Below are positions 1,609-59,553 of a stretch of DNA of 64,000 nt, piece after piece. Within the stretch, counting starts at the first letter, position 1; the number at the start of each line of letters is the position of its first letter. This DNA comes from Sphingopyxis sp. Root154 (GTDB lineage: Bacteria; Pseudomonadota; Alphaproteobacteria; Sphingomonadales; Sphingomonadaceae), in assembly GCF_001427105.1 (NCBI RefSeq), contig NZ_LMGI01000001.1, positions 868,001 to 932,000 of the forward strand, read 5' to 3'. Below the pieces are notes generated by a model. The model was not told the DNA's origin. It searched no databases and saw only the letters and a program-made list of their open reading frames with translations. The position numbers and the translations under genes were made by a program.

Positions 1609-1620
1609 GGACATCATTCC

Positions 1621-2260: not shown

Positions 2261-2271
2261 GGAGGCTCGTC

Positions 2272-3035: not shown

Positions 3036-3167
3036 GGCCTCCCCATCTAAGGATCAGTTTCATGTCCTCCTTTCACTTAGTCGGCGGCGAAATGCACGTC
3101 GAAGGGGCAGCGGCTCGCCCCGTGGATGGACGACGGCACCCCCTCGACCCGCGCCGCATGACGGCGG

Positions 3168-3848
3168 TCACGGCGCGGCGTTGAAGTCCGCCACCAGGTC
3201 GAAGCGGTCGCCGCGAAACAGCTGCCGCACATGGGTGACGACGCGCCCCGCGCGCCAGGTCGTGCGGTCGAGCTCGAGACAGGCAGCGCCCGTTCCGATC
3301 CCCAGCAGCGCCGCTTCCTTGCGCGTCGGCGTCACCGCGCGGATCACATGGCGCGCCTGCGTCCACGGAATGTGACCGAGCAGCCAGGTTCCCGGCGCTT
3401 CCCTGGCAAAGTCCGCGTCCGCTGCCTCGGGGACTTCGCTAAGCGCGATGAACCGTCGTTCGAGCGCAAAGGCTTCGCCCGCCGCCATATGCACGCCTTC
3501 AATGCGCAGCGCCGGACCGGAGAGCGGCTCACCGCCTGCGTCGGCGGTTTCTATCGACGCCAGCTCCCAGCGATAGGCTTCGCCGCGCGCGGCGATGAGT
3601 TCGGCGAGGTCGGGCACGGTCATCACCGCCGAATGAACCGGCGGATGCGCCACAAATGTCCCCGCCTTGCGGCGCCGTTCGACCAGCCCCGATGCGGCGA
3701 GTTCGCCGAGCGCCTTGCTCACCGTCGCACGCGCGCAGCCATAGCGCGCGGCGAGTTCCTGTTCGGTCGGCACGCGGTCGCCGGGGCGCCACTCGCCCGA
3801 CTGGATCGAGGCGGCGATCTCTTCGCGGATGCGCCGCGCGGGGTTCAT
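3168..3848 (-). CDS. hutC: Histidine utilisation repressor, GntR family
   Basis: HutC represses hut genes and is released by urocanate. The N-terminal third is a GntR winged helix with PTEQELAARYGCARATVSKAL; the rest is a UTRA ligand-binding domain ending with the basic-aromatic RQLFRGDRFDLV stretch. The start at 3848 gives 226 residues and an ATGA overlap with the end of hutF. An in-frame ATG 21 bases further upstream lies inside hutF and is less likely. Co-transcription with hutF makes the repressor autoregulated through the operator at 5208-5225. Confidence 0.93.
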   Translation of the reverse strand: MNPARRIREEIAASIQSGEWRPGDRVPTEQELAARYGCARATVSKALGELAASGLVERRRKAGTFVAHPPVHSAVMTVPDLAELIAARGEAYRWELASIETADAGGEPLSGPALRIEGVHMAAGEAFALERRFIALSEVPEAADADFAREAPGTWLLGHIPWTQARHVIRAVTPTRKEAALLGIGTGAACLELDRTTWRAGRVVTHVRQLFRGDRFDLVADFNAAP

Positions 3849-5194
3849 GCGAGCAGCCGCGCGATGCACGCGCGATAGGCGGCGCCGATGTCATCCGCAT
3901 CGACATGACGGCCTTTCTCGACGCGCTTGGCGCCCGCGCGCCAAACGCTGTCCACCGCACCCGCGCGCGCCGCGAATATCCAGCGATCGAGCAAGGTCGC
4001 ATCATCGGTTCCCGCGAAGGCGGAATGATCGAGGTCGAGCGAAACAATGTCGGCGGCGTGACCGACGGCGAGTCCGGCGGGCACACCCAGCGCCTGCGAC
4101 CCGCCATGCACCGCGCGTGCGAACAGGTTCGCGCCGACGAAGGGCGACGCCTCGTCCGCCAGCAATGCCCGCGCACGCTGCGCCAGACGCTGCGAATATT
4201 CGAGCGCGCGCAGTTCCTGCGCCGCGTCGACGAGGATGTTGCTGTCGGTCCCGATCCCGAAACGACCGCCCGCGGCGAGATAGTCGACCGCCGGAAAAAT
4301 GCCGTCGCCCAGATTGCCTTCGGTGATCGGGCACAGTCCGGCGACAGCGCCGCTCGCGGCGAGGCGCTGGACCTCGTTCGCATCGAGGTGGGTCGAATGG
4401 ATCAGGCACCAGCGGTCGTCGACGCCGGCGTTGTCGATCAGCCATTCGACCGGCCGCGCGCCGCTCCACGCGACGCAATCGGCGACCTCCTTCACCTGCT
4501 CAGCGGCATGGATATGCACCGGGCCAGTTGGCGACATTTCAAGCAGCGCCGCCAGCTCGTCGGGCGTCACCGCGCGCAGTGAGTGCGGCGCAACGCCGAT
4601 ATTGGCGTCGCCGGAGAGCTTTGGCCACGAAGCGTCGAGCAGCGCCGCAAATCCGTCGACGTCGTTTAGAAAGCGCCGCTGGCCGGGGCTCGGCGGCGCC
4701 GCGTCGAAATTCCCGTGCGCGTAGAAGACGGGGAGCAAGGTCAGCCCGATCCCTGTCGCGGCGCTGGCCTGCGCAATCGCCCCTGCCATCTCGGCGGGGT
4801 CGGCATAGGCGGCGCCCGCCGGATCGTGATGCAGATAGTGAAACTCGCCGACTCGCGTGAATCCCGTCTCCAGCATCTCGGCATATGCCTGCGCGGTGAT
4901 TGCCGCGACATCCTCGGGCGTCAGCCGATCGAGAAAGCGGTACATGATCTCACGCCAGCTCCAGAAATTATCGTCGGGCCGGCTGCGGCGCTCCGAGAGC
5001 CCCGCCATCCCGCGCTGGAAGCCGTGGCTGTGAACGTTGCACAGGCCGGGAAGCGCGACACGATGTCGTTCGTCTCCGGACTCCGCGGCAACGCCGGTCT
5101 CAACTGCTGCGATCCGGCCGTCGGCGACGTGCAATCGCACATCCTTCGCCCAGCCATTGTCGACCCATGCGCGTTCAAACCAGAGAGCCATCAT
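3845..5194 (-). CDS. hutF: Formimidoylglutamate deiminase
   Basis: HutF hydrolyses N-formimino-L-glutamate to N-formyl-L-glutamate and ammonia, the first half of the two-step HutF/HutG branch of histidine breakdown. The 449 residues are the normal length. Amidohydrolase metal and active-site motifs are seen in order: [15 protein letters not shown] near residue 55, [15 protein letters not shown], and [14 protein letters not shown] stands six bases from the first of two tandem ATG codons. It is transcribed leftward with hutC, divergent from hutI. Confidence 0.95.
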
Positions 5195-5207
5195 CTTTCG
5201 TCCTCAT

Positions 5208-5225
5208 ATTATGTCTAGACATAAT
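5208..5225. promoter_or_regulatory. HutC operator candidate (perfect palindrome)
   Basis: The 18 bases ATTATGTCTAGACATAAT are a perfect inverted repeat between divergent hutF and hutI. The core TGTCTAGACA fits the published HutC-subfamily GntR consensus yGTMTAKACy exactly. A further half-site-like TGTCTACAT follows at about 5244. One site here could control both hut transcripts. Confidence 0.85.
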
Positions 5226-5250
5226 GACGCGTCCGGACAACAATGTCTAC

Positions 5251-6435
5251 ATGGAGCAGCTCTGGACGAACGCCCGACTCGCAACGATGGCCGATGACAC
5301 CCTCGGCCTGATCGACCATGGCGTCGTGGCGGCGCAGAACGGCCGGATCGTCTATGCCGGCCCCGCCGACGGCGCGCCGGCGACCGCGCAAAAGGTCTAT
5401 GATTGCGAAGGCCGGCTGATCACCCCCGGCCTCATCGATTGCCACACACACCTTGTCCACGGCGGCAATCGCGCGAACGAATGGGCAATGCGGCTTGCGG
5501 GCGCGAGCTATGAGGAGATCGCGCGTGCAGGCGGCGGCATCGTCTCGACGATGCGCGCGACGCGCGACGCGAGCGAGGAGCAACTGGTTGCCAGCGCCCT
5601 TCCCCGCCTTGATGCGCTGATCGCCGAGGGCGTCACGACGATCGAGATCAAATCGGGTTACGGCCTGTCTACCGGCGACGAACTCAAGATGCTGCGCGCC
5701 GCCCGCGCGCTCGCCGGGCACCGCAACATCCGCGTCGAGCCAACCTTCCTCGGCGCGCACGCGCTGCCCCCCGAATATAAGGGTGACAGCGACGCCTATA
5801 TCGACCTCGTCGTGGGCGAGATGATCCCCGCGGCGGCGCCGCTCGCAACCGCGGTCGACGCCTTTTGCGAAGGCATCGGCTTCTCGCCCGCGCAATGCAC
5901 GCGCGTGATCGAGGCGGCCAAGGCGCACGGCCTTGCCGTCAAGCTCCACGCCGAACAATTGTCGGCGCTCAACGGCAGCGCGCTCGCCGCGCGGCACGGC
6001 GCGCTGTCGGCCGATCATCTCGAACATGCGACCGACGACGATGTCCGCGCGATGGCCGCGGCGGGCACCGTCGCGGTGCTGCTGCCCGGCGCCTATTATT
6101 TCATGCGCGAGACGAAACTGCCGCCGATCGACGCGATGCGTCGCCACGGCACCCGCATCGCGCTCGCGACCGACAACAACCCCGGCACCTCGCCGACCAC
6201 CTCGCTGCTGCTCATGCTCAATATGGGCGCGACTTTGTTCGGGCTGACGGTGGTCGAGGCGCTGCACGGGGTGACGATCAATGCCGCCGCCGCGCTCGGC
6301 CTTGGCGCCGAGATCGGCACGCTCGAGCCCGGCAAGGCGTGCGACCTCGCGATCTGGGACGTCAGCGACCCGGCCGAGCTCGTCTACCGCATCGGTTTCA
6401 ACCCGCTTCATCAACGCATCAAGGACGGACAATGA
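5251..6435 (+). CDS. hutI: Imidazolonepropionase
   Basis: HutI hydrolyses 4-imidazolone-5-propanoate to N-formimino-L-glutamate. Metal-site motifs are present: [28 protein letters not shown] and [11 protein letters not shown]. The start [13 protein letters not shown] at 5251 matches how family members usually begin (394 residues). An in-frame ATG at 5224 would overlap the operator and add nine residues. Neither start has a strong Shine-Dalgarno, so the transcript may have a very short leader. The stop overlaps hutH (ATGA). Confidence 0.95.
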
Positions 6436-7952
6436 TCATCACTCCCGGCGCCATGACACTCGCCGACTGGTGCGAAATCTATGAGGGCGCGAGCGCCGAA
6501 CTGAGCGCCGGTGCATGGGATGCGATCGACGCGAGCGCCGCCGCGGTCGCGCGCATCGTCGCGAAGGGCGCGCCGGTCTATGGCATCAATACCGGCTTCG
6601 GAAAGCTGGCGAGCGTTCGCATCGCCGACGACGATCTGGCGACGCTCCAGCGCAATATCGTGCTCAGCCACGCCGCGGGCACCGGCGCGCCGTCGCCGGT
6701 GAAGATCGTGCGGTTGATGATGGCGCTGAAGCTCGCGAGCTTTGGCATGGGCGCCTCGGGTGTGAAGCGCGAGACGGTCGCGATGATCGAGGCGATGCTC
6801 ACGAAAGGCCTCACTCCCGTCGTCCCGTCGCAGGGCTCGGTCGGCGCAAGCGGCGACCTCGCACCGCTCTCGCACATGGCGGCCGCGATGATCGGCGTCG
6901 GCGAAATCGAGATTGGCGGCAAGACCTTGCCCGCTGCCGAAGCGCTGGCGCAGGCCGGCCTCACTCCACTCGACCTCGGCCCCAAGGAAGGCCTCGCGCT
7001 GCTCAACGGCACTCAATTCTCCACCGCCAACGCGCTCGCGGGCTTGTTCCGCGCCGAGACCGTCTTCCGCTCGGCGCTGATTACCGGCGCGCTGTCGACC
7101 GAAGCCGCCAAGGGCTCGGACGCCCCCTTCGACGCGCGCATCCACGCCTTGCGCGGCCATGCGGGCCAGCGCGAGGTCGGTGATACACTCCGCAATCTGA
7201 TGGCGGGATCGGCGATCCGCGCGTCGCACGCCGTCGACGACCCGCGCGTGCAGGACCCCTATTGCCTCCGCTGCCAGCCGCAGGTGATGGGCGCGGTGCT
7301 CGACCTGCTGCGTCAGGCGGGAACGACGCTCGGCATCGAGGCAAACGGCGTTTCGGACAATCCTTTGATCTTCGCCGACACCGACGAAGCTTTGTCGGGC
7401 GGCAATTTCCACGCCGAACCCGTCGCCTTCGCTGCAGACATGATCGCGATGGCGCTCTGCGAGATCGGCTCGATTTCCGAGCGCCGCATCGCGATGCTCG
7501 TCGACCCCGCGCTGTCGGGCCTGCCCGCCTTCCTCACCCCACGCCCCGGGCTCAATTCAGGCTTCATGATCCCGCAGGTTACCGCCGCAGCGCTCGTCAG
7601 CGAGAATAAACAGCGCGCCCATCCCGCCAGCGTCGATTCAATCCCGACTTCGGCCAATCAGGAGGATCATGTTTCGATGGCCGCGCACGGCGCACGGCGC
7701 CTGCTCGAGATGGCCGACAATGTCAGTGCGGTGGTCGGGATCGAACTGCTCGCCGCGTGCCAGGGCATCGATTTCCACGCACCGCTGAAATCGAGCGATG
7801 CACTCGAAGCTGCGCACAAGCATCTGCGCGCCGAGGTTCCCACGCTCGAAGACGACCGGCATTTCCACCCCGACATGGAAGCCGCGACCGCGCTGATCCG
7901 CACGGGCAGTCTCGTCGCCGCGGTGCCCGCAAGCCTGCCGGGCGTCGGCTGA
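6432..7952 (+). CDS. hutH: Histidine ammonia-lyase
   Basis: HutH deaminates L-histidine to urocanate, the first step of the pathway. It has 506 residues, the normal size. The ASGD tripeptide source of the MIO electrophile is present in [18 protein letters not shown] near residue 143. [10 protein letters not shown] near residue 53 carries the catalytic Tyr, and HNNPL-like [11 protein letters not shown] follows later. It is joined to its neighbours by a four-base overlap at the start and a TGATG overlap at the end, so hutIHGU is one translationally coupled operon. Confidence 0.97.
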
Positions 7953-8755
7953 TGGACTGGCTGCGCGTCCATCGCGGCGACGCGCCGCTCGTCATCGCCT
8001 TTCCGCACGGCGGCACCGAGCTTGCGGGGCTCGACGAACAGTATGTCTCGCGCTGGCATGCGCAGCTCGACACCGACTGGTACATCGCCGAACTTTACGC
8101 CTTCGCTGCCGATCGAGGCGCGACGCTGGTTGCGACCGATATCTCGCGCAGCGTGATCGACATGAATCGCGACCCCTCGGGCGCGTCGCTCTATCCGGGG
8201 CAGGCGACGACCGAGCTGTGCCCGACGACGACCTTCGACGGCGAACCGCTCTATCGCTTTGATGCACCGGACGAGGCCGAGATCTTGCAACGGCTGAACT
8301 CTTACCACCGCCCCTATCACGATACGCTGAGCGAAGAGCTGGACCGCTTGAAATCGGCGCACGGCCGCGTCGTCCTCTACGACGCCCATTCGATCCGCAG
8401 CCATGTCCCGCGTCTGTTCGATGGCGAGCTGCCGCAGTTCAACATCGGCACCAATGGCGGCGCGACCTGCGCCCCCGAACTCGAAACCATCGTCGCGAAC
8501 ATCTGCGCCGCGAGCGGCAAGAGCCATGTCGTCAACGGCCGCTTCAAGAGCGGCTGGACGACACGCCACTACGGCCAGCCCGACGACGGCATCCACGCGA
8601 TCCAGATGGAGTTGGCACAGCGCGGTTACATGGCCGAGCCCGCCGAAATCACCCACGCCAACTGGCCCGCCCCTCTCGACCCCAACCCCGCGATCCGGCC
8701 CGTGCTGGAGCAAGTGATCGCCGCGGCCCTCGATTTTGCGAAAGGACAATCATGA
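7952..8755 (+). CDS. hutG: N-formylglutamate deformylase
   Basis: HutG hydrolyses N-formyl-L-glutamate to formate and glutamate, finishing the branch that HutF begins. It has 267 residues. Family motifs seen are FPHGGTEL near residue 17, [16 protein letters not shown] in the first third, and [12 protein letters not shown] in the middle. It starts on the hutH stop (TGATG) and overlaps hutU (ATGA). Confidence 0.95.
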
Positions 8756-10431
8756 CCACCCGCCCCCAGAATCCCAGACTGGACAACAGCCGCGTGATCC
8801 GCCCGGCTACCGGCAGCGAGATCAGCGCGAAAAGCTGGCTCACCGAAGCCCCGATGCGGATGCTGATGAACAACCTCCACCCCGACGTTGCCGAGCGGCC
8901 CGAGGAACTGGTCGTCTATGGCGGCATCGGCCGCGCCGCGCGCGACTGGGAAAGCTATGACCGGATCGTCGAAACGCTGAAGCGGCTCAACGACGACGAA
9001 ACCCTGCTCATCCAGTCGGGTAAGCCGGTGGGCGTGTTCCGCACCCACGCCGATGCCCCGCGCGTCCTGCTCGCCAATTCGAACCTCGTCCCCGAATGGG
9101 CGAACTGGGAGCATTTTCACGAGCTCGATAAAAAGGGCCTGATGATGTACGGCCAGATGACCGCGGGCAGCTGGATTTACATCGGCAGCCAGGGCATCGT
9201 TCAGGGCACCTACGAAACCTTCGTCGAAATGGGCCGCCAGCATTATGGCGGCAGCCTTGCGGGCCGCTGGCTGCTCACCGCCGGCCTCGGCGGCATGGGC
9301 GGGGCGCAGCCGCTCGCGGCGGTGATGGCGGGCGCGAGCTGCCTCGCGATCGAATGCCAGCCGAGCCGCATCGAAATGCGCCTGCGAACCGGTTATCTCG
9401 ACAAGCAGGCGAACAGCATCGACGAAGCCATCGCGATGATCGAGGCGAGCCATGCCGATGGCAAGCCCATATCGGTCGGCCTGCTCGGCAACGCCGCCGA
9501 AATCCTGCCCGAAATCTTCCGCCGCGGCATCCGTCCCGATCTGCTCACCGACCAGACCTCGGCGCACGATCCGGTCAACGGCTATCTCCCCGCGGGCTGG
9601 ACGCTCGACGAGTGGTTTTCGAAGCGCGAGAGCGATCCCGACGCCGTCGCAAAAGCGGCCAAGGCGTCAATGGCGGTGCATGTGGAGGCGATGCTCGACC
9701 TGCAGGCTGCGGGCGTGCCGACCACCGACTATGGCAATAACATCCGGCAGGTGGCGAAGGACGAAGGCGTCGAGAATGCGTTCGACTTTCCGGGTTTCGT
9801 CCCCGCCTATGTCCGCCCGCTCTTCTGCCGCGGCGTCGGCCCCTTCCGCTGGGTGGCGCTGTCGGGCGATCCCGAGGATATCTACAAGACCGACGCCAAG
9901 GTGAAGGAGCTGCTCCCCGACAATACGCACCTCCACAACTGGCTCGATATGGCGCGCGAGAAGATCCAGTTTCAGGGTCTGCCCGCGCGCATCTGCTGGG
10001 TCGGACTGGGCGACCGCCACCGGCTCGGCCTCGCCTTCAACGAGATGGTGGCATCGGGCGAACTTAAGGCGCCCATCGTCATCGGCCGCGACCATCTGGA
10101 CTCGGGCTCCGTTGCGAGCCCCAATCGCGAGACCGAGGCGATGCGCGACGGCAGCGATGCCGTATCCGACTGGCCGCTGCTCAACGCCCTCCTCAATACC
10201 GCGAGCGGCGCGACCTGGGTGTCGCTGCATCATGGCGGCGGGGTCGGCATGGGCTATTCGCAGCACGCCGGCATGGTCATCGTCGCCGACGGCACCCCCG
10301 AAGCGGCGAAGCGCCTTGAGCGCGTGCTATGGAACGACCCCGGCACCGGCGTGATGCGCCACGCCGACGCAGGCTATGACATCGCGATCGACTGCGCGCG
10401 CGAAAAGGGCCTCGACCTGCCGAGCATCTAG
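8752..10431 (+). CDS. hutU: Urocanate hydratase
   Basis: HutU converts urocanate to imidazolonepropionate using tightly bound NAD+. It has 559 residues, the usual length. The dinucleotide site is visible in [13 protein letters not shown] near residue 180, the catalytic Tyr region in the N-terminal third, and the Cys-containing [14 protein letters not shown] near residue 413. It is the last gene of the hut operon. Confidence 0.97.
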
Positions 10432-10470
10432 CGCTTGTTTCAGTTGCACCGAAACAGCTTCGCATCCTAA

Positions 10471-10498
10471 GGCTCTCCCCGACGATGAGGGGAGAGCC
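10471..10498 (+). terminator. Hairpin after hutU, overlapping the next ribosome site
   Basis: GGCTCTCCCC and GGGGAGAGCC form a perfect 10-bp stem with an 8-base loop. There is no T-run, so it is not a classic intrinsic terminator. Its 3' arm supplies the only purine-rich Shine-Dalgarno-like sequence (GGGGAGAG) for the acyl-CoA dehydrogenase start at 10507. It could therefore hide that site, or simply stabilise the 3' end of the hut mRNA. Confidence 0.6.
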
Positions 10499-10506
10499 AG
10501 ACGCCG

Positions 10507-11670
10507 ATGTCCGAAGCCCAGCCGCCAAGCCATCCCGAAATCCGCGACGCGGTGCGCCGCCTCTGCGCCGATTTTCCCGGCGAATATTGGCAGCGGCTCG
10601 ACCGCGACCGCATCTATCCGACCGAATTCGTGCGCACGCTCACTGAAGCGGGTTTCCTGTCGGTCCTGATACCAGAGGAATATGGCGGATCGGGCCTCGG
10701 CCTCGGTGCCGCGACTGCGGTGCTTGAGGAAATCCACCGTTCGGGCTGCAACGGCGGTGCGTGCCATGCGCAGATGTACACGATGGGCACGCTGCTGAAA
10801 CATGGGTCGGAGGCGCAGAAGCAGGCCTATCTGCCCGCAATCGCGCGCGGTGACCTCCGCCTGCAGGCGTTCGGCGTGACCGAGCCGACCGCGGGCACCG
10901 ACACCACGCGCATCCGCACCTTCGCCAAAAGAGTCAGCGACAAATATATCGTCAACGGCCAGAAGATCTGGATCAGCCGCGCCGAGCATTCGGACCTGAT
11001 GGTCCTCCTCTGCCGCACTACCCCGCGCGAGGAATGCGCAAAGCCGTCCGACGGGATGAGCGTCCTCCTCGTCGACATGCGCGAGGCCGAGGGCAAGGGT
11101 CTGACGATCCGCCCCGTCCGCACGATGCTCAACCATGCGACAACCGAGCTGTTCTTCGACGATCTCGAAGTCCCCGCCGCGAACCTGATCGGCGAGGAGG
11201 GCAAGGGCTTCCGCTATATCCTCTCGGGAATGAACGCCGAGCGCATCCTGATTGCGTCCGAATGCATCGGCGACGGCCGATTTTTCATCGACCGCGCCAC
11301 CGCATACGCCAAGGACCGCGAAGTCTTCGGCCGCGCGATCGGCACGAACCAGGGCGTCCAGTTCCCGATCGCGCGCGCCTATGTCCAGATCGCCGCCGCC
11401 GCCGAAATGGTCGACAAGGCCGCGCGGCTGTTCGACGCCGGGCAGGACGGCGGGACCGAGGCCAACATGGCAAAGATGCTCGCATCCGAAGCAAGCTGGT
11501 ACGCCGCCGACATGTGCGTTCAGACGCACGGCGGCTTCGGCTTTGCCGAGGAATATGACATCGAACGCAAGTTCCGCGAGACGCGCCTCTACCAAGTCGC
11601 ACCGATCAGCACGAACCTGATCCTGAGCCATGTCGCGACGCACGCGCTCGGCCTGCCCAAGAGCTTCTGA
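10507..11670 (+). CDS. Acyl-CoA dehydrogenase family protein
   Basis: This FAD-dependent enzyme introduces a double bond into an acyl-CoA. It has 387 residues. Family features are LIPEEYGGSGLGLG near residue 56, AFGVTEPTAGTDTTRI near 120 (flavin and substrate contacts), QKIWISRAEHSDL near 155, and the C-terminal QTHGGFGFAEEYDIER. It is followed four bases later by a hydratase-like gene, so the two probably act on the same CoA ester. The substrate cannot be told from sequence; no thiolase or ligase is adjacent. Confidence 0.9.
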   Translation: MSEAQPPSHPEIRDAVRRLCADFPGEYWQRLDRDRIYPTEFVRTLTEAGFLSVLIPEEYGGSGLGLGAATAVLEEIHRSGCNGGACHAQMYTMGTLLKHGSEAQKQAYLPAIARGDLRLQAFGVTEPTAGTDTTRIRTFAKRVSDKYIVNGQKIWISRAEHSDLMVLLCRTTPREECAKPSDGMSVLLVDMREAEGKGLTIRPVRTMLNHATTELFFDDLEVPAANLIGEEGKGFRYILSGMNAERILIASECIGDGRFFIDRATAYAKDREVFGRAIGTNQGVQFPIARAYVQIAAAAEMVDKAARLFDAGQDGGTEANMAKMLASEASWYAADMCVQTHGGFGFAEEYDIERKFRETRLYQVAPISTNLILSHVATHALGLPKSF

Positions 11671-11674
11671 GCCG

Positions 11675-12517
11675 ATGGACGATTATTCCGCCTGGGTCGG
11701 CCGCAGCGAAACCCGCGAGGATGTCGCGGCCGCGGCACCGCTCGCCGGTCTCGCCGCCTTGCTCGATCATGACAGCTCGCCATGGTTACCCGGTACGGTG
11801 CCGCCGCTGGCCCATTGGCTCTATTTCCTGCCCACCGCGCGCCAGTCGGCGATCGGCGAGGACGGTCACCCGCGCCGCGACGGCGCGGGCCTCCTCCCGC
11901 CCGTCCCGCTTCGGCGCCGCATGTGGGCGGGTAGCCGCATCGACTTCCTTTCCCCGGTCGCGGTCGGTGCCGCACTGACGCGCGTCACCACGATCGACGC
12001 GATCAAGCCAAAGCACGGCGCGAGCGGCGACCTCCTGTTCGTGACGCTGCGTCACGACATTACTGCGGATGGCGTTGCCGCGATCCGCGAGGAGCAGGAC
12101 ATCGTCTTTCGCGAACCCGCGCCGACGGCGCCTGCACCCGCCGCCGTTCCGGTCGAACCGGCGGAACCCGAGCCCGCCGATGCTGTGCGTAGCCTATCGC
12201 CCGATCCTGTACTCCTGTTCCGCTATTCGGCGCTCACCTTCAACGCTCACCGCATCCACTACGACCGCGATTATGCGCAGAATGTCGAAGGCTATGCCGG
12301 GCTGGTCGTCCACGGCCCGCTGATCGCGACCTTGCTGATGGATCACCTTCTGCGCACCGCGCCCGGCGCAACACCGCGCCGTTTCAGCTTCCGCGCCGAA
12401 GCACCGTTGATCGACGGCGCCCCCTTCGACCTCTGTCTCGCCCGCGATGGCGATGCGACGCGATTGTGGGCGCGCGATGCAGCAGGACGCGCGACGATGC
12501 GCGCCGACGTCGCATAG
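11675..12517 (+). CDS. MaoC-like hydratase, mesaconyl-CoA/itaconyl-CoA hydratase type
   Basis: This 280-residue protein resembles the FAS1-like/mesaconyl-C4-CoA hydratase group. An N-terminal hot-dog-like half contains LPPVPLRRRMWAGSRIDF. A Pro/Glu-rich linker lies at about residues 148-168. The second hot-dog half has the catalytic-type motif FSALTFNAHRIHYD shortened here as SALTFNAHRIHYD, then YAGLVVHGPLIATLL. It follows the dehydrogenase after four bases, so it likely hydrates the enoyl-CoA that enzyme makes. Exact chemistry is an inference. Confidence 0.75.
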   Translation: MDDYSAWVGRSETREDVAAAAPLAGLAALLDHDSSPWLPGTVPPLAHWLYFLPTARQSAIGEDGHPRRDGAGLLPPVPLRRRMWAGSRIDFLSPVAVGAALTRVTTIDAIKPKHGASGDLLFVTLRHDITADGVAAIREEQDIVFREPAPTAPAPAAVPVEPAEPEPADAVRSLSPDPVLLFRYSALTFNAHRIHYDRDYAQNVEGYAGLVVHGPLIATLLMDHLLRTAPGATPRRFSFRAEAPLIDGAPFDLCLARDGDATRLWARDAAGRATMRADVA

Positions 12518-12719
12518 CCGGGCCCGGTCAAGGCGAATCCACCCACCGAGAACATCTGGGTATTTCTCCGCTCCCGACATTGCCAATTCGCAAAGCGGGT
12601 CATGCCGCGGCGGATCATGATCGCCTTGTTCGCACCGATGCGGACGGAGTCGGGGAGGATCCGCATCAGCCATGCCATTCGGCATCGCGCGCCATCCCCT
12701 TTTTGTAAGGAGAGTAGTC

Positions 12720-13244
12720 ATGATCAAGAAAGTCATGCTGGCGGTGTCGACGCTGGCGCTTGCCGTCTCGGCCGCACCTGCCTTCGCGCAGGGAAGCCAA
12801 GATCAGGACAATGACAACACCACGACGGGTGCTTCGGGCAACAACAGCGACACCGTCGTCGTCAACGACCTGATCGACCTGTTCGTCCAGGACAATGCCG
12901 CCGACACCTTCTCGGATGACGATCAGGACAATGACGGCAATGGCTCGCTCAACGGCAACAGCCTCGTTGTGGCGACCCAAACGCTCAATGCCAACAACAC
13001 CAACCAGCAGATGGACGAACTCGTCGACCTGGACGGTGAGGACGACAGCGACACGGCGGTCGGCTACAACAGCGGCAACAACAGTGTGAGCGGCAGCGCC
13101 TTCGCGGCCTACGCCGGCATCCTGAACGCCGCCTGGAACACGGGCATCAACTCGAACGCCCAGGCTGCAACCAACATCGCGGCAAGCGGCACTGTGAGCT
13201 TCGGCGACAGCGCTCCGGCCGGTGGCGACGGCGGCGCCGACTAA
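12720..13244 (+). CDS. Secreted Asn/Asp/Gln-rich protein, candidate amyloid-like subunit
   Basis: This 174-residue protein has a clear signal peptide (MIKKVMLAVSTLALAVSAAP, cleavage near AFA/Q at 23). The mature part is very rich in Asn, Asp, Gln, Ser and Thr, with two DQDND copies and Asn-rich stretches such as LNANNTNQQ, and no Cys. Low complexity of this kind is typical of surface fibre subunits. Strong TAAGGAGAG precedes the ATG, and a strong hairpin follows the gene, which suits an abundant product. Its neighbours are a C39 peptidase and a coiled-coil outer-membrane protein, the partners FapB/FapC have in Pseudomonas. Homology to Fap subunits is not shown by sequence alone. Confidence 0.7.
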   Translation: MIKKVMLAVSTLALAVSAAPAFAQGSQDQDNDNTTTGASGNNSDTVVVNDLIDLFVQDNAADTFSDDDQDNDGNGSLNGNSLVVATQTLNANNTNQQMDELVDLDGEDDSDTAVGYNSGNNSVSGSAFAAYAGILNAAWNTGINSNAQAATNIAASGTVSFGDSAPAGGDGGAD

Positions 13245-13257
13245 CCGGTCCCCCCGG

Positions 13258-13291
13258 ATGGCCGGCCCGGCACCACTGGCGGGCCGGCCAT
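13258..13291 (+). terminator. Strong GC hairpin after the first secreted-protein gene
   Basis: ATGGCCGGCCCG and CGGGCCGGCCAT form a perfect 12-bp stem with a 10-base loop, followed by TTCCC. It stands between the first secreted-protein gene and the three genes downstream. It probably acts as a partial terminator or mRNA stabiliser that raises the level of the first product over the rest. Confidence 0.7.
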
Positions 13292-13326
13292 TTCCCAATG
13301 TTTCGCTTTCGAGGAGCGCCCGCGTC

Positions 13327-13734
13327 ATGAAACCCCCGATCGTCCCGGCCCTGCTGGTCCTGGCAGGCCTGTCCGTGCCCGTATCGGCACAGCTGCCTCC
13401 GCCCGAAGCAGCGGCGCCGCGCGTGGTTGAGGCCGTCCCGGCCGGAGCCTATGCAGCCCCGGCGATCCCGGCGCAGCCCGAACGCAAATCGCCGATGCTG
13501 AAAGACAAAGAGCTCGACACGTTGCGCGGTGGCCAGTCGCTCGTCATCACCAACCAGACGATGGAATCGATCGTCAGCGGCAACGTCCTGAAGGGCGACT
13601 ATACCGCGGGCGCGGTCACGTTGAGCGATTTCGCGCTCTCCAACTTCAATGGTGTCGGCAACCTGCTGATCAACACCGGTGCGCAGGTCAGTGCCCAGAG
13701 CGGCATGAACCTGACCATCAACCTCGGCGATTGA
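13327..13734 (+). CDS. Secreted protein with a double-glycine processing motif
   Basis: This 135-residue protein has a signal peptide (about 1-21, VSA/Q) and then a Pro/Ala-rich stretch. LKDKELDTLRGG at residues 58-69 fits the double-glycine leader pattern LSxxELxxIxGG cut by C39 peptidases. After the Gly-Gly comes a 66-residue Asn/Ser/Thr-rich segment with alternating polar and small hydrophobic residues (VTLSDFALSNFNGVGNLLIN), plausible for beta-rich fibre or adhesin material. The next gene encodes a C39 peptidase. I infer that the mature product is residues 70-135. No named family is recognised; FapE-like is a possible reading. Confidence 0.65.
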   Translation: MKPPIVPALLVLAGLSVPVSAQLPPPEAAAPRVVEAVPAGAYAAPAIPAQPERKSPMLKDKELDTLRGGQSLVITNQTMESIVSGNVLKGDYTAGAVTLSDFALSNFNGVGNLLINTGAQVSAQSGMNLTINLGD

Positions 13735-13741
13735 GTCCGCC

Positions 13742-14476
13742 ATGCGGCCCATGCGCGCCTTGATCGCGGGCATGTTGTGCGCCCTTGCGGCCGCCCCCGT
13801 CGCCGCCGAGGTCCGGCTGACCGGGCCCGAAACGGGAGGCAATTACCAGCTTCAGGTGATGACCTGGTGGGATATTCCTTTCCGCTCGGTCGTTCGACAA
13901 CGCTATGATTTCAGTTGCGGTTCCGCCGCGATCGCGACCCTGCTCACCTATCATTATGGCGCGCCGACATCGGAAACGATGCCCTTCCGCGCGATGTGGG
14001 AAAAGGGTGACCGCGAGGCGATCCGCAAGGTCGGCTTCTCAATGCTCGACATGAAAAACTATCTCGCCTCGCGCGGCTATCGTGCCGAAGGCTTCCGGAT
14101 CACCGCCGAGCAATTGAAGCAGGTGAAGCGCCCGACGATCGTCCTGATGGACCTGAAAGGCTTCAAGCATTTCGTGGTCGTCAAAGGCGTCCGCGGCGAC
14201 CGCGTGCTCACCGGCGATTCGGTTCTCGGCCTCAACGAATATTCGCTCAGCGATTTCGAGAAGCATTGGAACGGCATTGCACTGGCCATCGTCGAGGGTG
14301 GACAAAAGCGTCCTTCCTTCAACCTTGCTGGCGACTGGGGCCCTTGGTCGCAGGCGCCGCTCGAAGATGAGGGCGCGCTTCGCGTTTCGATCAGCGATCT
14401 GACGACCAACCTTCCCCCGCAATATCAGCTGACGCCGCAGATCCTGCTCGATGTGCGCGTCGGCACCGTGAAATGA
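13742..14476 (+). CDS. Secreted C39-family peptidase (FapD-like)
   Basis: This 244-residue protein has a signal peptide (about 1-22) and a papain-like C39 domain. The oxyanion Gln is at 53 and the catalytic Cys at 59 in YDFSCGSAAIATLL. His is at 143 in KGFKHFVVVKG and Asp at 159 in VLTGDS, so the triad is intact. There is no ABC transporter fused or nearby, unlike bacteriocin exporters; stand-alone exported C39 proteins of this kind include FapD. The two flanking secreted proteins carry Gly-Gly motifs, its probable cut sites. It overlaps the following gene by four bases (ATGA). Confidence 0.85.
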   Translation: MRPMRALIAGMLCALAAAPVAAEVRLTGPETGGNYQLQVMTWWDIPFRSVVRQRYDFSCGSAAIATLLTYHYGAPTSETMPFRAMWEKGDREAIRKVGFSMLDMKNYLASRGYRAEGFRITAEQLKQVKRPTIVLMDLKGFKHFVVVKGVRGDRVLTGDSVLGLNEYSLSDFEKHWNGIALAIVEGGQKRPSFNLAGDWGPWSQAPLEDEGALRVSISDLTTNLPPQYQLTPQILLDVRVGTVK

Positions 14477-15051
14477 GGCCGCCCATGTCCCTCCGCATCC
14501 TCCTGCTCGCCTTCGCGCCGGTGATCCTCGCGGCGAGCGAGCCCGCGGCCGACGATCCGCTTGTGGACGCCGAGACGGTATCGGATGAGGTGCTGGCGAC
14601 GCAGCGCGGCGGCTTTGCCTTTCAGGGCATGGTGATCGCCTTCGGTGCCGATATTCGCAGCTTCGTGAACGACGAACTCGCGCTCCGCACGATCGTCAGC
14701 TGGACGCCCCAAGGGTCCTCGATCGAGCGCTTCGTGTCGCCGGCGCTGACCGCGGTCGATGCGGCGCAGATCCAGGGCGGCATTTTGACCAGCGGCGGCA
14801 TCACCATGCGCGTGGGCGACGAACCGGTGTTCCTCGCGAACAACGGCCAGACCGCGCTGATCCAGAATACCGACGCGATCCAGAATGTATTGATCAACAC
14901 CGCCAGCAACGTGTCGCTGAACCAGCAGGTCGACGCCGTGCTCGACCTCAGCGGCTATGAAGGGTTCCGCGACGCGCTGGCCTCCACGCGGATGAGCGAC
15001 GCAATCGGCGCCGCGATGGGCGCGCAGACGGTCGGCGCGCTCGGCAACTGA
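14473..15051 (+). CDS. Secreted protein with RGG motif, second candidate C39 substrate
   Basis: This 192-residue protein has a signal peptide (about 1-21). VSDEVLATQRGG at residues 36-47 partly fits the double-glycine leader pattern, with Gly-Gly at 46-47. The C-terminal part (INTASNVSLNQQVDAVLDLS) has the same alternating Asn/Ser/Leu character as the 135-residue protein upstream, including an INT(A/G) segment shared by both. It overlaps the C39 gene by ATGA; an alternative Met is four codons in. It is the last gene of the plus-strand unit and is followed by a strong terminator. Confidence 0.7.
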   Translation: MRPPMSLRILLLAFAPVILAASEPAADDPLVDAETVSDEVLATQRGGFAFQGMVIAFGADIRSFVNDELALRTIVSWTPQGSSIERFVSPALTAVDAAQIQGGILTSGGITMRVGDEPVFLANNGQTALIQNTDAIQNVLINTASNVSLNQQVDAVLDLSGYEGFRDALASTRMSDAIGAAMGAQTVGALGN

Positions 15052-15063
15052 ACGACCCCCCGC

Positions 15064-15119
15064 CCCTGTTTCGACAGGGACGGTTCACCTCGCCCCGCCT
15101 CTTTTGGCGGGGCTTCTTT
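15064..15119 (+). terminator. Tandem hairpins, intrinsic terminator
   Basis: The first hairpin is CCCTGT-TTCG-ACAGGG (15064-15079), with a stable UUCG tetraloop. The second is GCCCCGCC-TCTTTT-GGCGGGGC (15092-15113), followed by TTCTTT. The second is a convincing rho-independent terminator for the plus-strand unit, and it separates that unit from the convergent outer-membrane protein gene. Confidence 0.9.
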
Positions 15120-15155
15120 ATGTCGCCCTTATGTCGCTGGATCAGGCCGCCGGGA

Positions 15156-16592
15156 TCATAGTTTCCCGCCGAACGGCATGCGCAGCGTGATCGACACGTC
15201 GGGCGCATCTTCGGTCACGCCGATCTCGAAACCCATGTTCAGAACGTCGCGCTCGGTCAGGCGATAGGACATGCCGAAATTGAGCGAACCGACGTGGATA
15301 TAGTTGGATTTCTGATGCGTATCGCCAATCTCGGTCTTGGTCGGGAAGATATAATTGTGCCGGTAACCCAGCGAGAAAGAGAAGCGCGGGTTGAGCGCGA
15401 AACCGAAGCCGATATTGGCCGAAACCGCGTCGCCCGGATCGACGCGCCCGATCAGCACGTCGCCGACCAATTCATTCACATCGCGCGGGATATGATAAAG
15501 ATAGGCCGCGCCGCCATAGATCACCGCGGGATCCGACGGCATCAGGAAATTGAGCCCCGGCTGCACCGCCCAGAAGCCCGACCCGGTGGCCAGCCCCGTC
15601 GCGACACCGAATTCGTCGTAGCCGACCTCGAACGGCCCCTTGCCCGTGTCCGATTTCACGCGCAGCGTCCCGACGAAGATCGGCTTTTGCCCGACCGGGC
15701 GATTGAATTGATAGCGCAGCGAGAATTCGGCATCGCCGATCCCGTCCTCGCGCAGCGCGATCGACCGGACGATGCCTTCGTCGCGCTGCTGGACGACCTC
15801 GATCCGGTCGTTGCGATAGAGATAGGGGATGCGCACCTCTGCCTCGAGCCGGTCGCTGATTCCGTAACGCAGCGAGGCCGTGCCGACGAGCGTATCGCGG
15901 TCGGCGTCGGTCGCCTCGATCAGCCCGATCTGGATCCCCGGGATCAGCTCGATCCCGCGAAAGACGAGGCGATTGGTCGACGAGCGCGTATATTCGAACG
16001 AGGGTTCGAAAATGAGATTGCCGGCGCGCGTCAGCACCCCCTGTCCTTCGGGAACCGCCGCGACGCGTTCGGTGGTCGACTCGCCCGGAGGCGGTGCCTC
16101 GCCGACCGGCGCATCGGGCAGCGCGACCGCGTCGCTGCCGGGGCCCGGAAGCGCAGGGCCGGCAACGCCCTGCCCCATGCCGGTTCCGCGAAACATTTCG
16201 AGCGGTGCCTCGGCTAGCGCGAAGGACGATAGCCGGTCGACCTGCGCCTGCTGGGTAATAAGCTGTCCCTGCATCTTCACGATCTGCTGCCGCTGCTCGG
16301 CGAGCATCGCGTTCTGCTGATCGATCATCGCGCGCTGTTCGGCGATGATCCGGCGCTGCGCGTCGATCTCGCTCTCGGCGCTCGCGGCCGGCGGGCTATC
16401 GGCGGCGGCGCCCGGGGCGCCCGCCGCCGCGTTCCACGTCGGCGCGGTGTCGAGAAAGGGAAGCGCATCGCACAAGCATTCGAGCGCCGGTGTTTCATGC
16501 GCCCTGGCCTGCGAGGGCGTAAAAACCGCCGACAGCCCGACGGCGGCCACACCCATATGGCGCAGCACGGGCGGCGCTGATAAATTGCTCAT
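15156..16592 (-). CDS. Outer-membrane beta-barrel protein with periplasmic coiled coil (FapF-like)
   Basis: This 478-residue protein has a signal peptide (about 1-31), a Cys pair at 39-41, a Pro/Ala linker, and a long Gln/Glu-rich coiled coil at about residues 72-122 (RRIIAEQRAMIDQQNAMLAE is typical). A Pro/Gly-rich link follows, then about 280 residues of alternating beta-strand pattern (TASLRYGISDRLEAEVRIPY, FGFALNPRFSFSLGYRHNY) ending in RMPFGGKL. Coiled coil plus C-terminal barrel is the layout of FapF, the trimeric pore that exports Fap amyloid subunits. The start overlaps the Crp gene stop (ATGA). Family identity is inferred from architecture and neighbours. Confidence 0.75.
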   Translation of the reverse strand: MSNLSAPPVLRHMGVAAVGLSAVFTPSQARAHETPALECLCDALPFLDTAPTWNAAAGAPGAAADSPPAASAESEIDAQRRIIAEQRAMIDQQNAMLAEQRQQIVKMQGQLITQQAQVDRLSSFALAEAPLEMFRGTGMGQGVAGPALPGPGSDAVALPDAPVGEAPPPGESTTERVAAVPEGQGVLTRAGNLIFEPSFEYTRSSTNRLVFRGIELIPGIQIGLIEATDADRDTLVGTASLRYGISDRLEAEVRIPYLYRNDRIEVVQQRDEGIVRSIALREDGIGDAEFSLRYQFNRPVGQKPIFVGTLRVKSDTGKGPFEVGYDEFGVATGLATGSGFWAVQPGLNFLMPSDPAVIYGGAAYLYHIPRDVNELVGDVLIGRVDPGDAVSANIGFGFALNPRFSFSLGYRHNYIFPTKTEIGDTHQKSNYIHVGSLNFGMSYRLTERDVLNMGFEIGVTEDAPDVSITLRMPFGGKL

Positions 16593-17269
16593 GCGCCTGC
16601 CCCCTGCCCGGTGAACGATCGCCGCGGCTGCATCGCGCGCAACTTGTCGATCGCGACGCCCATTTCTTCGCCGGCAATCGCGCGCAGCCCGTCGAGGTCG
16701 ACCAGCCGGCACAATTGCGGGCCCTCCAGCTCGATCAGGCCCTGGCGGACAAAACCCGAAATCGTCCGGCTGACCGTATGGATCGTCAGGCCCAGATGAT
16801 CGGCAATATCGCCGCGCGTCATCGGCAAGGGAACGCTGCCGAGCGCCGACAGCCGCTTCGCCGCGATCAACAGGAACGCCGCGACGCGTTCGTTGGCATT
16901 GCGGCGGCCGAGCAGGAAGATGCATTGATTCGCGCTGTCCAGCGCGCGTTCGAGCGCCCGGTTCTGCCCGAGCGAATCGGGGTCGCCATTCAGCGCCGGA
17001 CGGCGGGTCAGGATTGTGTTGGTGACCGCTTCGGCGGCCGCGTCGCGCGCGCCATATTCGACGCCGAAGACGTCACCCTGATAGAAGAACCCCGTCAGCT
17101 GGCGGTGCCCGTCGACGTGGAAATGACAGGTTCTGACAGTGCCCGAGATGACTTCGAACCAGCAATCGCCGGGATCGCCCTGCGAGAAAATAATCTCGCC
17201 TTTCCGGAATTTTAGGATGGTGTCCTGCGGAATGGACCCGCGTTGAAACTCTGCCGAAAGACCTTGCAC
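16589..17269 (-). CDS. Crp/Fnr-family transcription regulator
   Basis: This 226-residue protein has an N-terminal cyclic-nucleotide-type beta-roll (KGEIIFSQGDPGDCWFEVIS, then GFFYQGDVFGVE). A dimer helix contains NANERVAAFLL, and the C-terminal helix-turn-helix has MTRGDIADHLGLTIHTVSRT. The FNR-type cluster of four N-terminal Cys is absent, so it looks more like FixK than an oxygen sensor. It is translationally coupled to the outer-membrane protein and lies beside an AT-rich promoter region, so it probably controls the secretion cluster. Confidence 0.9.
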   Translation of the reverse strand: MQGLSAEFQRGSIPQDTILKFRKGEIIFSQGDPGDCWFEVISGTVRTCHFHVDGHRQLTGFFYQGDVFGVEYGARDAAAEAVTNTILTRRPALNGDPDSLGQNRALERALDSANQCIFLLGRRNANERVAAFLLIAAKRLSALGSVPLPMTRGDIADHLGLTIHTVSRTISGFVRQGLIELEGPQLCRLVDLDGLRAIAGEEMGVAIDKLRAMQPRRSFTGQGAGA

Positions 17270-17576
17270 GCCACGTCTCCAATCTGGAATTGGTATTTGC
17301 GGCGACCCCGTTTGCGAGTCTCATCTCCCTTTGCGGGTGCTGAATCCATCCGCATAAAAACCAAGGAATTCGTGTGTATGAACAGCCTAGGAAAATCACT
17401 TACGTAAATTTCCTTAGCGTTTGAGGATGGATTAAGACTGAATTTCAATAGTATAGGTATTTTGGCACACGCAGTGTCTCTATATACTTAATTAGCTTAG
17501 GTTAATTGATAAACAGCACACAAACATATATCATCGACACCAGAGCAGGTGGGTTGCGGGTCGTGCCGCGCAAAAG
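17270..17576. promoter_or_regulatory. AT-rich divergent regulatory region
   Basis: These 307 bases lie between the leftward Crp gene and the rightward LuxR gene. From about 17340 on they are much richer in A and T than the surroundings. Seen here are the 8-bp palindrome TTACGTAA (17400-17407), a TTAATTAG/TTAATTGA direct repeat (17488-17509), and a TATATACT box near 17481. No gene was found. The composition suggests a heavily regulated divergent promoter; no canonical FNR box was visible. Confidence 0.6.
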
Positions 17577-17894
17577 ATGCTCGTCGGTCGCACAGTGTCT
17601 AAGCCTTGGGTATCAGGGGATTGCGCCGTGCATCAAAACGCTTTGAACGTCGAACCGCATTTGACCTTTCGTGAACATCAAATACTCGAACTGGTCGCCG
17701 TCGGCTGCTCGGCTAAGCAGATCGCGATCGAAATCAATATCGCGCCACGAACCGTCGAACGGCACATCGAGAATGTGCGGCTGAAACTCAATGCGCGCAA
17801 CCGCGCGCATCTGATAACCCAGGCCATGCACCTGGGCCTGCTGGTCATCGAAACACCATCGCCCGACGAACCGACGCTATTCGAACTTAAATGA
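17577..17894 (+). CDS. HTH-only LuxR-type regulator
   Basis: This 105-residue protein is little more than a LuxR/FixJ C-terminal helix-turn-helix: LTFREHQILELVAVGCSAKQ, then APRTVERHIENVRLKLNARN. No receiver or ligand domain is present. A GTG at about 17628 is an alternative start, leaving the HTH intact. It diverges from the Crp gene across the AT-rich region and may act with it on the secretion cluster. Confidence 0.75.
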   Translation: MLVGRTVSKPWVSGDCAVHQNALNVEPHLTFREHQILELVAVGCSAKQIAIEINIAPRTVERHIENVRLKLNARNRAHLITQAMHLGLLVIETPSPDEPTLFELK

Positions 17895-18069
17895 CGGGCA
17901 TCCGAAATGCATATGATGGGCACTCGATGAACGCCCTGAAGCGTGGCGAGCAGGTATTCGCTGCCGTCCATTGGTTGAAGCAGGTTAAACGGGCGAACCT
18001 CGTCGCAGGTTGTTCCCGACCGGGGAGTCCATCATCCGCACAGATTGGAGGGCCCGCGGAGCTATTCGA

Positions 18070-18345
18070 TCAAAATTCCGAGATCGTTTCATCCTCGATC
18101 GCCGCACGGATCATCCGGTCCCAGACATCGGCGTCGCCGACCGCGAGCATCCGCCCGCTCGGCTCGCGCAGCGTACGGAGCGCGGCGAGCGCGGCGTCGG
18201 TATAGTCGGGCCATAGTGCATCGACCGCCGGACCCGCCGACGTAAGCTCGCCTTCAGCATTTCTGCTCAGCGCATGACCGGCGAGAGCGCGCGCGACACG
18301 CTCGACGGGAGCGGTCGCGGCATGGTCGAGATTGCCGTGCGACAT
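18070..18345 (-). CDS. Small hypothetical protein
   Basis: This 91-residue, acidic, Ala-rich, helical protein begins MSHGNLDHAATAPVERVARAL and has a WPDYTDAALAALRTLREPSG segment in the middle. AAAGGAGAT stands seven bases from the ATG, which makes expression likely. It has no recognised domain, signal peptide or membrane segment. Confidence 0.6.
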   Translation of the reverse strand: MSHGNLDHAATAPVERVARALAGHALSRNAEGELTSAGPAVDALWPDYTDAALAALRTLREPSGRMLAVGDADVWDRMIRAAIEDETISEF

Positions 18346-18536
18346 GTTGGATCTCCTTTTCGTGACATGAGCTCAACGTCCGCACAGCCGCGCGGGTTGC
18401 AGGTCGGCGCGGCAAGCAGGCGATGGATACCGACCGTGCGCTGCACCCGCGCAAAAGCGAGCAACCGCTTGCGGGCGGGAACGATCGATGCCGTGATGCG
18501 TCAGTCGATCGCCCACCCCAGACCGCGGGAGCGAGA

Positions 18537-59476: not shown

Positions 59477-59553
59477 TGGTGCACCCGGCGGGATTCGAAC
59501 CCACGGCCCCCAGATTAGGAATCTGATGCTCTATCCTGCTGAGCTACGGGTGC
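59477..59553 (-). tRNA. tRNA-Arg, anticodon CCT
   Basis: Read on the minus strand, the 77 bases start GCACCCG and end CGGGTGC-A-CCA, with encoded CCA. Present are the D-arm AGCTCAGCAGGATAGAGC, the anticodon loop TTCCTAA within a 5-bp stem (TCAGA/TCTGG), and the T-loop GGTTCGAATCC. Anticodon CCT reads AGG. No duplicate 3' end or integrase was seen. Confidence 0.96.

Follow-up and report, generated by a model that had tools for sequence, protein, structure and literature searches.

Does a sphingomonad carry a version of the functional-amyloid export system known from Pseudomonas as Fap (fapABCDEF)? The question is raised by a gene cluster at positions 12720 to 17894 of a 64,000-nucleotide stretch of the Sphingopyxis sp. 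Root154 genome (contig NZ_LMGI01000001.1, positions 868,001 to 932,000; hereafter the window), in which a first-pass annotation had proposed a Fap-like export system made up of three secreted proteins (termed here P1, P2 and P4), a C39 peptidase, an outer-membrane protein of 478 residues and two adjoining regulators. All of these parts are open reading frames (ORFs) lying at or near the places proposed for them, and they do form two convergent units, P1-P2-C39-P4 on the forward strand and fapF-crp on the reverse strand (Table 1). The core of the proposal was borne out by matches of the cluster proteins to the FapF (9e-37) and FapD (6e-47) profiles and by a structural model of the barrel that superposes on FapF with a TM score of about 0.8. 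On grounds of sequence, modelling and analogy, we consider it probable that the cluster is a divergent sister of the Fap export system, in which the FapD-like peptidase would remove a leader from P4 and P2.

A FapD-like peptidase and a FapF-like barrel in a conserved gene set

The 478-residue protein matches the NCBIfam FapF model (9e-37, 126.8 bits) as well as the sequences of the FapF crystal structures (1e-29). Its structural model, computed from a 59-row alignment with a mean predicted local distance difference test score (pLDDT) of 80, comprises one long helix (residues 72-125) and a barrel (residues 192-477), and FapF chains fill the first 18 places among the Foldseek matches of this model (lowest E 2.7e-22, TM by target 0.78-0.83, root-mean-square deviation (rmsd) 3.1-6.1 Å). 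Against the FapF structures 5o65/5o67 the TM by target was 0.79-0.82 and the rmsd 3.1-4.7 Å, and the COG4313 channel 4rl8 ranked below FapF (5.5e-12, TM by target 0.70). By sequence and by model, the protein is FapF-like as had been claimed, with a predicted periplasmic coiled coil followed by a FapF-type barrel. The peptidase matches the NCBIfam C39_FapD model (6.2e-47, 159.7 bits) and has Peptidase_C39 (4.4e-16) as its sole Pfam match, so that the profile searches recommended at first pass were positive for both FapF and C39. Its catalytic residues Cys59, His143 and Asp159 stand at the motif positions, in agreement with the intact triad reported for this secreted enzyme, and among solved structures its sequence comes nearest to 6mpz, the domain of a double-glycine-motif protease (1.2e-6).

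The cluster is not a chance set of frames, because its genes are kept together in other genomes. Matches to all seven cluster proteins were found in 13 of 13 Sphingopyxis-type loci (L027-L039), the LuxR match of L033 being cut by a contig end, and P1, P2, C39, P4, FapF and Crp recur at 37-61% identity in the more distant Croceibacterium soli and Sphingomonas sp. LaA6.9, where the window's neighbouring genes do not lie alongside. In order to measure the wider spread of FapF-like proteins we searched tool-drawn samples of genomes, which are no census; the window's own genome is counted in them, as are members of both clades described below. A FapF-like match at 1e-10 was found in 25 of 80 Sphingopyxis genomes (23 at 74-100% identity, two at 30-35%), and the order sample yielded matches in 57 of 396 genomes, representing 26 of 84 genera. 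The class sample gave 18 of 385 at 1e-8, and the FapF profile matched 38 of 398 genomes of the phylum sample, seven of them above the curated cut-off. Among 72,556 plasmid records there were 18 with a FapF-like match, all below 60% identity, in Acinetobacter, Cupriavidus, Polymorphobacter, Croceicoccus, Photobacterium, Vibrio, Indioceanicola and Aeromonas.

A total of 110 loci (15 of the initial set including L027-L039, 55 from the order sample, 20 of 46 from the phylum sample, 15 of 20 from the class sample and 5 of 18 from plasmids) were searched with profiles grown from the window proteins, ORFs being read from stop to stop; the counts depend on this reading and on the profile thresholds. 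A match to P2 or P4, by which we define type-A loci, was found in 71 of them, or in 70 without the duplicate Croceibacterium record L075, the Sphingopyxis loci being included in both figures. P2, C39 and P4 lie in a row in 68 of these 70 loci, which answers the synteny survey proposed at first pass; co-occurrence here follows partly from the selection by P2 or P4, though P2 or P4 also accompanies 46 of the 48 FapF rows in the clade defined below. In 24 of the 68 loci fapF lies within 1.5 kb on the same strand, in 39 it is found on the opposite strand and in 5 it is more distant; P1 was recognised in 45 of the 68. In Croceicoccus and Polymorphobacter the same-strand order P1-P2-C39-P4-fapF equals the fap order, and the row P2-C39-P4 is also found in Cupriavidus metallidurans and on a Vibrio plasmid. 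The gene set spans Alpha-, Beta- and Gammaproteobacteria.

Thirty-two further loci (L103-L123, L134-L143 and L174) were taken as canonical on the basis of low identity to the window FapF or a high FapF-profile score, and seven loci fit neither class. The FapA, FapB, FapC and FapE models were checked in two of the canonical loci, L134, in which all four match with FapC below its cut-off, and L110, in which all four match below cut-off. In a FapF tree of 74 rows built by a quick method, 46 type-A rows and two others stand on one side of a branch with support of 99, and 20 of 21 canonical rows are grouped by another branch, also with support of 99. We conclude from these separate branches that the window belongs to a separate clade. 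It is to be noted that near-identical sequences were dropped by a 3-mer overlap rule for this tree as well as for the leader counts, matrix tests and linker tests reported below.

Several individual loci deserve mention. The canonical locus L110 (genome G091, 2385-8272), from the window's own family, holds a canonical-type fapABCDEF with an extra gene of about 200 codons between fapE and fapF, and genome G167 carries the new clade and a canonical-type system together (L093 and L120). The set P1-P2-C39-P4 is present twice in tandem in L150 (G590, 1531-6970), and two adjoining P1-type genes lie upstream of P2 in L073 (G204, 10372-11621). A more distant pair of FapF-like and C39 proteins from other Alphaproteobacteria (L175, L176 and L177) forms its own branch (support 100); the profile search found no P2 or P4 matches in these three loci.

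A predicted double-glycine leader motif in P4 and P2

According to a 2023 review, C39 proteases of double-glycine leaders cut after GG, GA or GS, and the peptidase LahT binds hydrophobic residues at positions -4, -7 and -12 along the leader helix (PMC10885120). A motif of 12 residues that ends in RGG follows the signal peptide in both P2 (LKDKELDTLRGG) and P4 (VSDEVLATQRGG). The P2 motif fits the C39 register throughout, with Leu at -4, -7 and -12, and that of P4 fits at -12 (Val) and -7 (Leu), with a non-hydrophobic Gln at -4. Conservation of the motif was counted in 55 non-redundant P4 relatives, all of which have Leu at -7 and Gly at -2; Arg at -3 and Gly at -1 each occur in 53, and Leu, Val, Met or Ile at -12 in 51. 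The sole invariant columns of a 39-row P4 alignment are L37, R41, G42 and G43 (numbered from 14485), all four within the motif. Of 53 P2 relatives, 51 have Gly at -2 and 51 have Leu or Met at -7, with Gly (28), Arg (13) or Lys (5) at -1.

A matrix was derived from the P4 leaders and each protein was scored against its own shuffles. At p<=0.01 (p<=0.05) it recognised 36 (48) of 55 P2 proteins, 2 (7) of 31 P1, 2 (8) of 76 FapD, 5 (12) of 52 type-A FapF, 2 (6) of 25 canonical FapF and 0 (0) of 8 other window proteins, the type-A group of FapF in this test and in the linker-only test below being every row outside the canonical list, including a few of neither class. The corresponding count for FapE, 15 of 15 at p<=0.01, is biased by the picking of its rows with the P4 profile, including the type-A fragment L166, and a search with a leader-free profile was run to replace it. 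This search found FapE in 30 of the 32 canonical loci (all except L105 and L106), and the motif stands at the same place in all 30, with Gly at -2 (29 by pattern and L103 by eye; LKDAEMADLRGR in L134 is an example). In the order sample, L103-L123 comprise 21 FapF matches resembling that of L110, and 19 of the 21 are accompanied by a FapE bearing RGK or HGK.

The relationship detected between P4 and FapE is confined to the N-terminus. P4 matches the NCBIfam FapE model weakly (0.002), as do 13 of 40 P4 family members (best 1.2e-4), and hhalign aligns P4 with FapE at 5e-11 over the N-terminal 55 columns. This similarity depends on the leader and on the residues directly behind it, since the leader-free FapE profile finds no type-A locus; for the FapE in the parts list of the first-pass annotation, P4 is a candidate by its N-terminus. 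In the P4 model (mean pLDDT 76, and only 66-68 around the leader) a helix at residues 34-40 ends right before RGG 41-43 and is followed by beta strands. No clear structural match was returned for this model by Foldseek (best E 6.5e-3) or VIA (Z at most 4.7), and we therefore claim no fold for it; a search of the P4 profile against PDB sequences gave two matches only, with E of 0.39 and 0.59.

A related motif may be present in the linker of FapF. The whole-protein matrix test was weak in this respect (p = 0.062 for the window FapF). A linker-only test in which -1 was ignored and rows of fewer than 400 residues were dropped gave matches at p<=0.01 in 9 of 45 type-A rows, 5 of 19 canonical rows and 0 of 128 barrel segments; it was devised after the whole-protein result, and some of its matches are coiled-coil heptads. 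The window motif LAEAPLEMFRGT reached p = 0.016 in this test, in which the Pseudomonas-type rows L134 and L136 had no linker site. These sequence matches suggest the FapF linker as a possible third site for FapD.

Secreted proteins and competing explanations

P1 was described at first pass as an Asn/Gln-rich secreted protein. Secretion is supported by a signal peptide (judged by eye, as in the other cluster proteins) and the richness in Asn was confirmed, and the composition found is N/D-rich: after residue 22, N and D each account for 14.5%, with 24 acidic residues, no Lys or Arg and no Cys. Relatives of P1 range from 161 to 805 residues (one 56-residue row with an uncertain start was set aside), and the long ones inspected contain abundant N/D/S/T repeats. 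P1 and P2 have a C-terminal module in common (hhalign 7e-10). The assignment of these proteins as FapB/FapC subunits is upheld by their position and secretion and falls short on homology, P1 and P2 being without a detectable FapB/FapC match. The imperfect repeats of FapB and FapC (usually three, of about 38-39 residues) were not found in P1 or P2. A FapB match was obtained for one of 59 P2 members (5.6e-4), and a distant kinship of P2 may accordingly exist. The same number of P2 members, one of 59, matched a mosquitocidal-toxin Pfam model (0.0011), which was taken as chance.

Several observations weigh against a Fap relationship with a cleaved leader. The FapF-like score of 126.8 bits and the FapD-like score of 159.7 bits lie below the strict NCBIfam equivalog cut-offs of 700 and 330, respectively. 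The NCBIfam FapB and FapC models match neither P1 nor P2 of the window up to E of 1, nor any of 32 P1 members, and hhalign found no match between P1 or P2 and 82 FapB/C-type repeat stretches chosen by pattern from 35 canonical-locus ORFs, which is a blunt test. At a threshold of 1e-5, not one type-A locus is matched by the leader-free FapE profile. Position -4 of P4 varies, and its commonest residue is the non-hydrophobic Gln (in 16 of 55 relatives, ahead of Met in 14, Leu in 10 and Tyr in 5). Arg or Lys stands at -1 in 18 of 53 P2 rows, which is not classical GG cleavage, and canonical FapE has Lys or Arg there in 30 of 30 cases and GG in none. Finally, at p<=0.05 the P4-leader matrix also picks 8 of 76 FapD and 7 of 31 P1 proteins.

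The best-surviving alternative, which we regard as unlikely yet serious, is that the exported product is no amyloid but a surface coat or adhesin of hydrophilic, disordered character, with P1 as a low-complexity acidic polymer that remains unfolded or builds a non-amyloid matrix. The want of detected FapB/C-type repeats in P1, its 24 acidic residues with no Lys or Arg after residue 22, and the widely varying lengths of its relatives, several of which are long N/D/S/T repeat proteins, speak for such a coat; the conserved C-terminal module common to P1 and P2 and their location with homologues of FapD and FapF, whose known clients are amyloids, speak against it. A second alternative concerns the leader only and appears doubtful to us: the RGG motif of P4 and P2 might have a structural role or bind a chaperone, and not be a cleavage site. 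Conservation alone is no proof of cleavage, and the Arg or Lys at -1 of canonical FapE (30/30) and of P2 (18/53) would suit an uncut element. Yet the motif keeps the C39 leader register (-12, -7 and GG, with -4 in part only), it is placed between the signal peptide and the beta domain, a C39 peptidase that has its triad is encoded next door, and mass spectrometry of Pseudomonas sp. UK4, reported in the 2017 FapF paper, recovered no FapE peptides from the first 70 or so residues (PMC5557850).

A pilus system of the Acinetobacter Fil type is very improbable: the C39 and barrel proteins also match the NCBIfam models FilB (7.5e-29, 101 bits against a cut-off of 475) and FilC (3.7e-16, 59.4 bits against a cut-off of 630), but FapD and FapF score better on both, and the one A. 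baumannii row falls outside the clade in the FapF tree, on a very long branch whose placement is unsure. The Fil pilus was rejected on these weaker matches. An uptake channel of the COG4313/phenol-MetA type with an unrelated C39 neighbour can practically be dismissed, and was rejected as a weaker structural match than FapF. In its favour are a Pfam Phenol_MetA_deg match (7.7e-4, below cut-off) and the presence of 4rl8 among the Foldseek matches; against it, 4rl8 stands far below the FapF structures (5.5e-12 and TM by target 0.70, as compared to 2.7e-22 and 0.80), the barrel protein has a helix for the coiled coil, and C39, P2 and P4 lie beside or near the barrel in 68 of 70 loci.

Under the preferred reading of a divergent Fap export system, P1, P2, P4 and the peptidase would cross the inner membrane by Sec, as their signal peptides indicate. 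The periplasmic C39 peptidase would then recognise the leader of P4 and P2, which is conserved and in the right register, and cut after its second Gly, in the manner of bacteriocin C39 domains, and this cleavage in the periplasm would open or license the FapF-like pore. By analogy with Pseudomonas Fap, cut P4 might prime or anchor the exporter, and the pore with its periplasmic coiled coil would export P1 and P2 to form surface fibres, presumably amyloid. What the sequences and models show of this scheme is the homology of FapD, of FapF and of the FapE N-terminus, together with a conserved gene set and conserved motifs, the later steps being carried over from Pseudomonas Fap and bacteriocin C39 peptidases. 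A more general proposal, which in our estimation could equally well hold or fail, is that FapD is a periplasmic double-glycine-leader peptidase, the maturation logic of bacteriocins being placed behind Sec to control an outer-membrane amyloid exporter. It would cut FapE (at RG[K/R] in the canonical systems and RGG in the new clade), P2 and, in some lineages, the FapF linker, thereby licensing export, and the FapD-E-F machine would not be tied to FapB/C, a large second clade having unrelated fibre proteins with variable repeats, contrary to the published view of Fap as a fixed system.

Genomic setting and comparison with known systems

The regulators named at first pass do adjoin the cluster: the Crp gene (Pfam 6.7e-17) has FixK as its closest NCBIfam model (9e-40, below cut-off), and the LuxR-type gene matches Pfam GerE (9.4e-17). 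The stop of the Crp/Fnr gene overlaps the fapF start as ATGA, and the FixK-like regulator may tie expression to low oxygen. That the system has its own regulators holds for the window, where they stand beside the cluster, and less so beyond it, Crp being a local feature: it adjoins fapF in 25 of the 71 type-A loci (a count that holds the Croceibacterium record twice), all of them sphingomonads near the window's FapF and often with a divergent LuxR. Crp and LuxR were accordingly rejected as defining parts outside one sphingomonad subclade. No Rfam match was found in 12400-18400, and seven terminator-like sites are present in the region as compared to 4.6 expected.

Table 1. Features of the cluster, in coordinates of the window
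Feature	Coordinates	Strand	Description
P1	12720..13244	+	174 aa; secreted, acidic and N/D/G/S/T-rich; candidate for the major subunit of the fibre
P2	13327..13734	+	135 aa; small and secreted, with a predicted double-glycine leader; candidate for a minor subunit or nucleator
Predicted double-glycine leader motif of P2	13498..13533	+	LKDKELDTLRGG; cut expected after second Gly
FapD-like C39 cysteine peptidase	13742..14476	+	244 aa; signal peptide and Cys/His/Asp triad
P4	14473 (or 14485)..15051	+	Secreted; FapE-like N-terminus and double-glycine leader
Predicted double-glycine leader motif of P4	14578..14613	+	VSDEVLATQRGG
Terminator-like hairpin between the convergent units	15092..15113	+	Consensus match only
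FapF-like outer-membrane exporter	15156..16592	-	478 aa; helix/coiled coil (aa 72-125) joined by a linker to the beta-barrel (aa 192-477)
Leader-like motif in FapF linker	16182..16217	-	LAEAPLEMFRGT; possible third FapD site
Crp/Fnr (FixK-like) regulator	16589..17269	-	Directly upstream of fapF
Small LuxR/GerE-type DNA-binding protein	17577..17894	+	Divergent from the crp-fapF unit

The cluster lies at the left end of about 47 kb of DNA (window 12512-59471) that is present in the window and absent from some Sphingopyxis genomes. Seven cluster-less Sphingopyxis genomes were inspected; in three of them (L185, L186 and L187) DNA matching 59471 onward begins within some 25-400 bp of the gene at 11630-12517, and the other four have other DNA at that place. 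A tRNA-Arg gene (59477-59553) lies by the right end of the variable segment. No direct repeats were found inside 12500-12720 nor inside 59300-59700, each stretch having been searched separately and the two ends not cross-compared.

Export of the microcin or bacteriocin kind was ruled out by the free-standing peptidase and the Sec signals. With bacteriocin and RiPP exporters such as LahT and the PCATs the cluster has in common the C39 triad, a leader with hydrophobic residues at -12 and -7 (and in part at -4) followed by GG, and 6mpz as the best PDB match of the peptidase. It differs from them in that the peptidase stands alone with a signal peptide, a Sec signal precedes the leader in the substrates, and the seven cluster proteins include no ABC transporter; a C39-ABC transporter fusion, as in type 1 or microcin export, was not found, the peptidase having 244 residues and no Pfam domain other than Peptidase_C39. 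The COG4313/phenol-MetA channels have the same barrel fold, whereas the relevant part of PMC6173800 reports no C39 partner for them. In Acinetobacter Fil a C39 peptidase (FilB) likewise adjoins a FapF-like barrel (FilC), but the scores are weaker than those for Fap, and FilA, FilE and FilF are not among the cluster genes.

Pairs of FapD and FapF outside Fap operons have been noted before: the FapD and FapF profiles match larger families (PMC3792158), and fapD and fapF homologues within 5 kb of each other are given for five additional phyla in PMC6173800, which in its part on these pairs describes no gene set, fibre protein or leader and may overlap with our clade. The restriction of Fap mainly to Beta-, Gamma- and Deltaproteobacteria, on which the first-pass annotation founded its claim of novelty, is a view of 2013 (PMC3792158); a 2025 screen has placed Fap in many families of Pseudomonadota and in other phyla (PMC12822426), and canonical-type fap is present in a genome of the window's own family. 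According to the passages describing their design, two 2025 surveys required homologues of the FapB/C repeats (PMC12392863; PMC12822426), and because of this requirement clusters like that of the window would escape such screens. No description of the clade or of its leader motif was found among the titles and abstract openings of the papers listed by searches of an open-licence PubMed Central library; sphingomonads are possibly among the Fap matches of the 2018 and 2025 surveys.

What FapD cuts has been a matter of discussion in the Pseudomonas system. According to the sections of the 2017 FapF paper devoted to it, secretion depends on FapD and its catalytic Cys, the target of FapD is unclear and FapE may be processed, and the Fap proteins have no canonical C39 site although FapE has GG and GA motifs (PMC5557850); a 2025 review states that FapD is "thought to" process FapE and FapF (PMC12822426). 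The clean GG form of the motif in the new clade points to a degenerate counterpart in canonical FapE and names the candidate residues. PMC12822426 concludes that Fap is fixed in evolution; this view would have to change if the export machine has, as found here, a second and widespread clade whose fibre proteins are different, and many candidates for biofilm fibres would be added from Alpha-, Beta- and Gammaproteobacteria of the environment.

The closest comparison remains that with Pseudomonas Fap itself, of which the clade looks like a little-noticed sister. Both possess an exported C39 peptidase of the FapD type, a coiled-coil barrel of the FapF type and the FapE-like N-terminus, and same-strand relatives of the cluster in Croceicoccus and Polymorphobacter keep the order subunits-D-E-F. 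The cluster differs in that no FapA and no FapB/FapC repeats were found in it; as the first-pass annotation had observed for FapA, neither of the two NCBIfam FapA models matches the seven window proteins, whereas both match the FapA of L134, and the FapA chaperone is often missing from accepted Fap operons. Further differences are the distinct FapF clade, the placement of fapF in the window on the other strand behind a Crp gene, and the GG leaders of P4 and P2, where FapE has RG[K/R].

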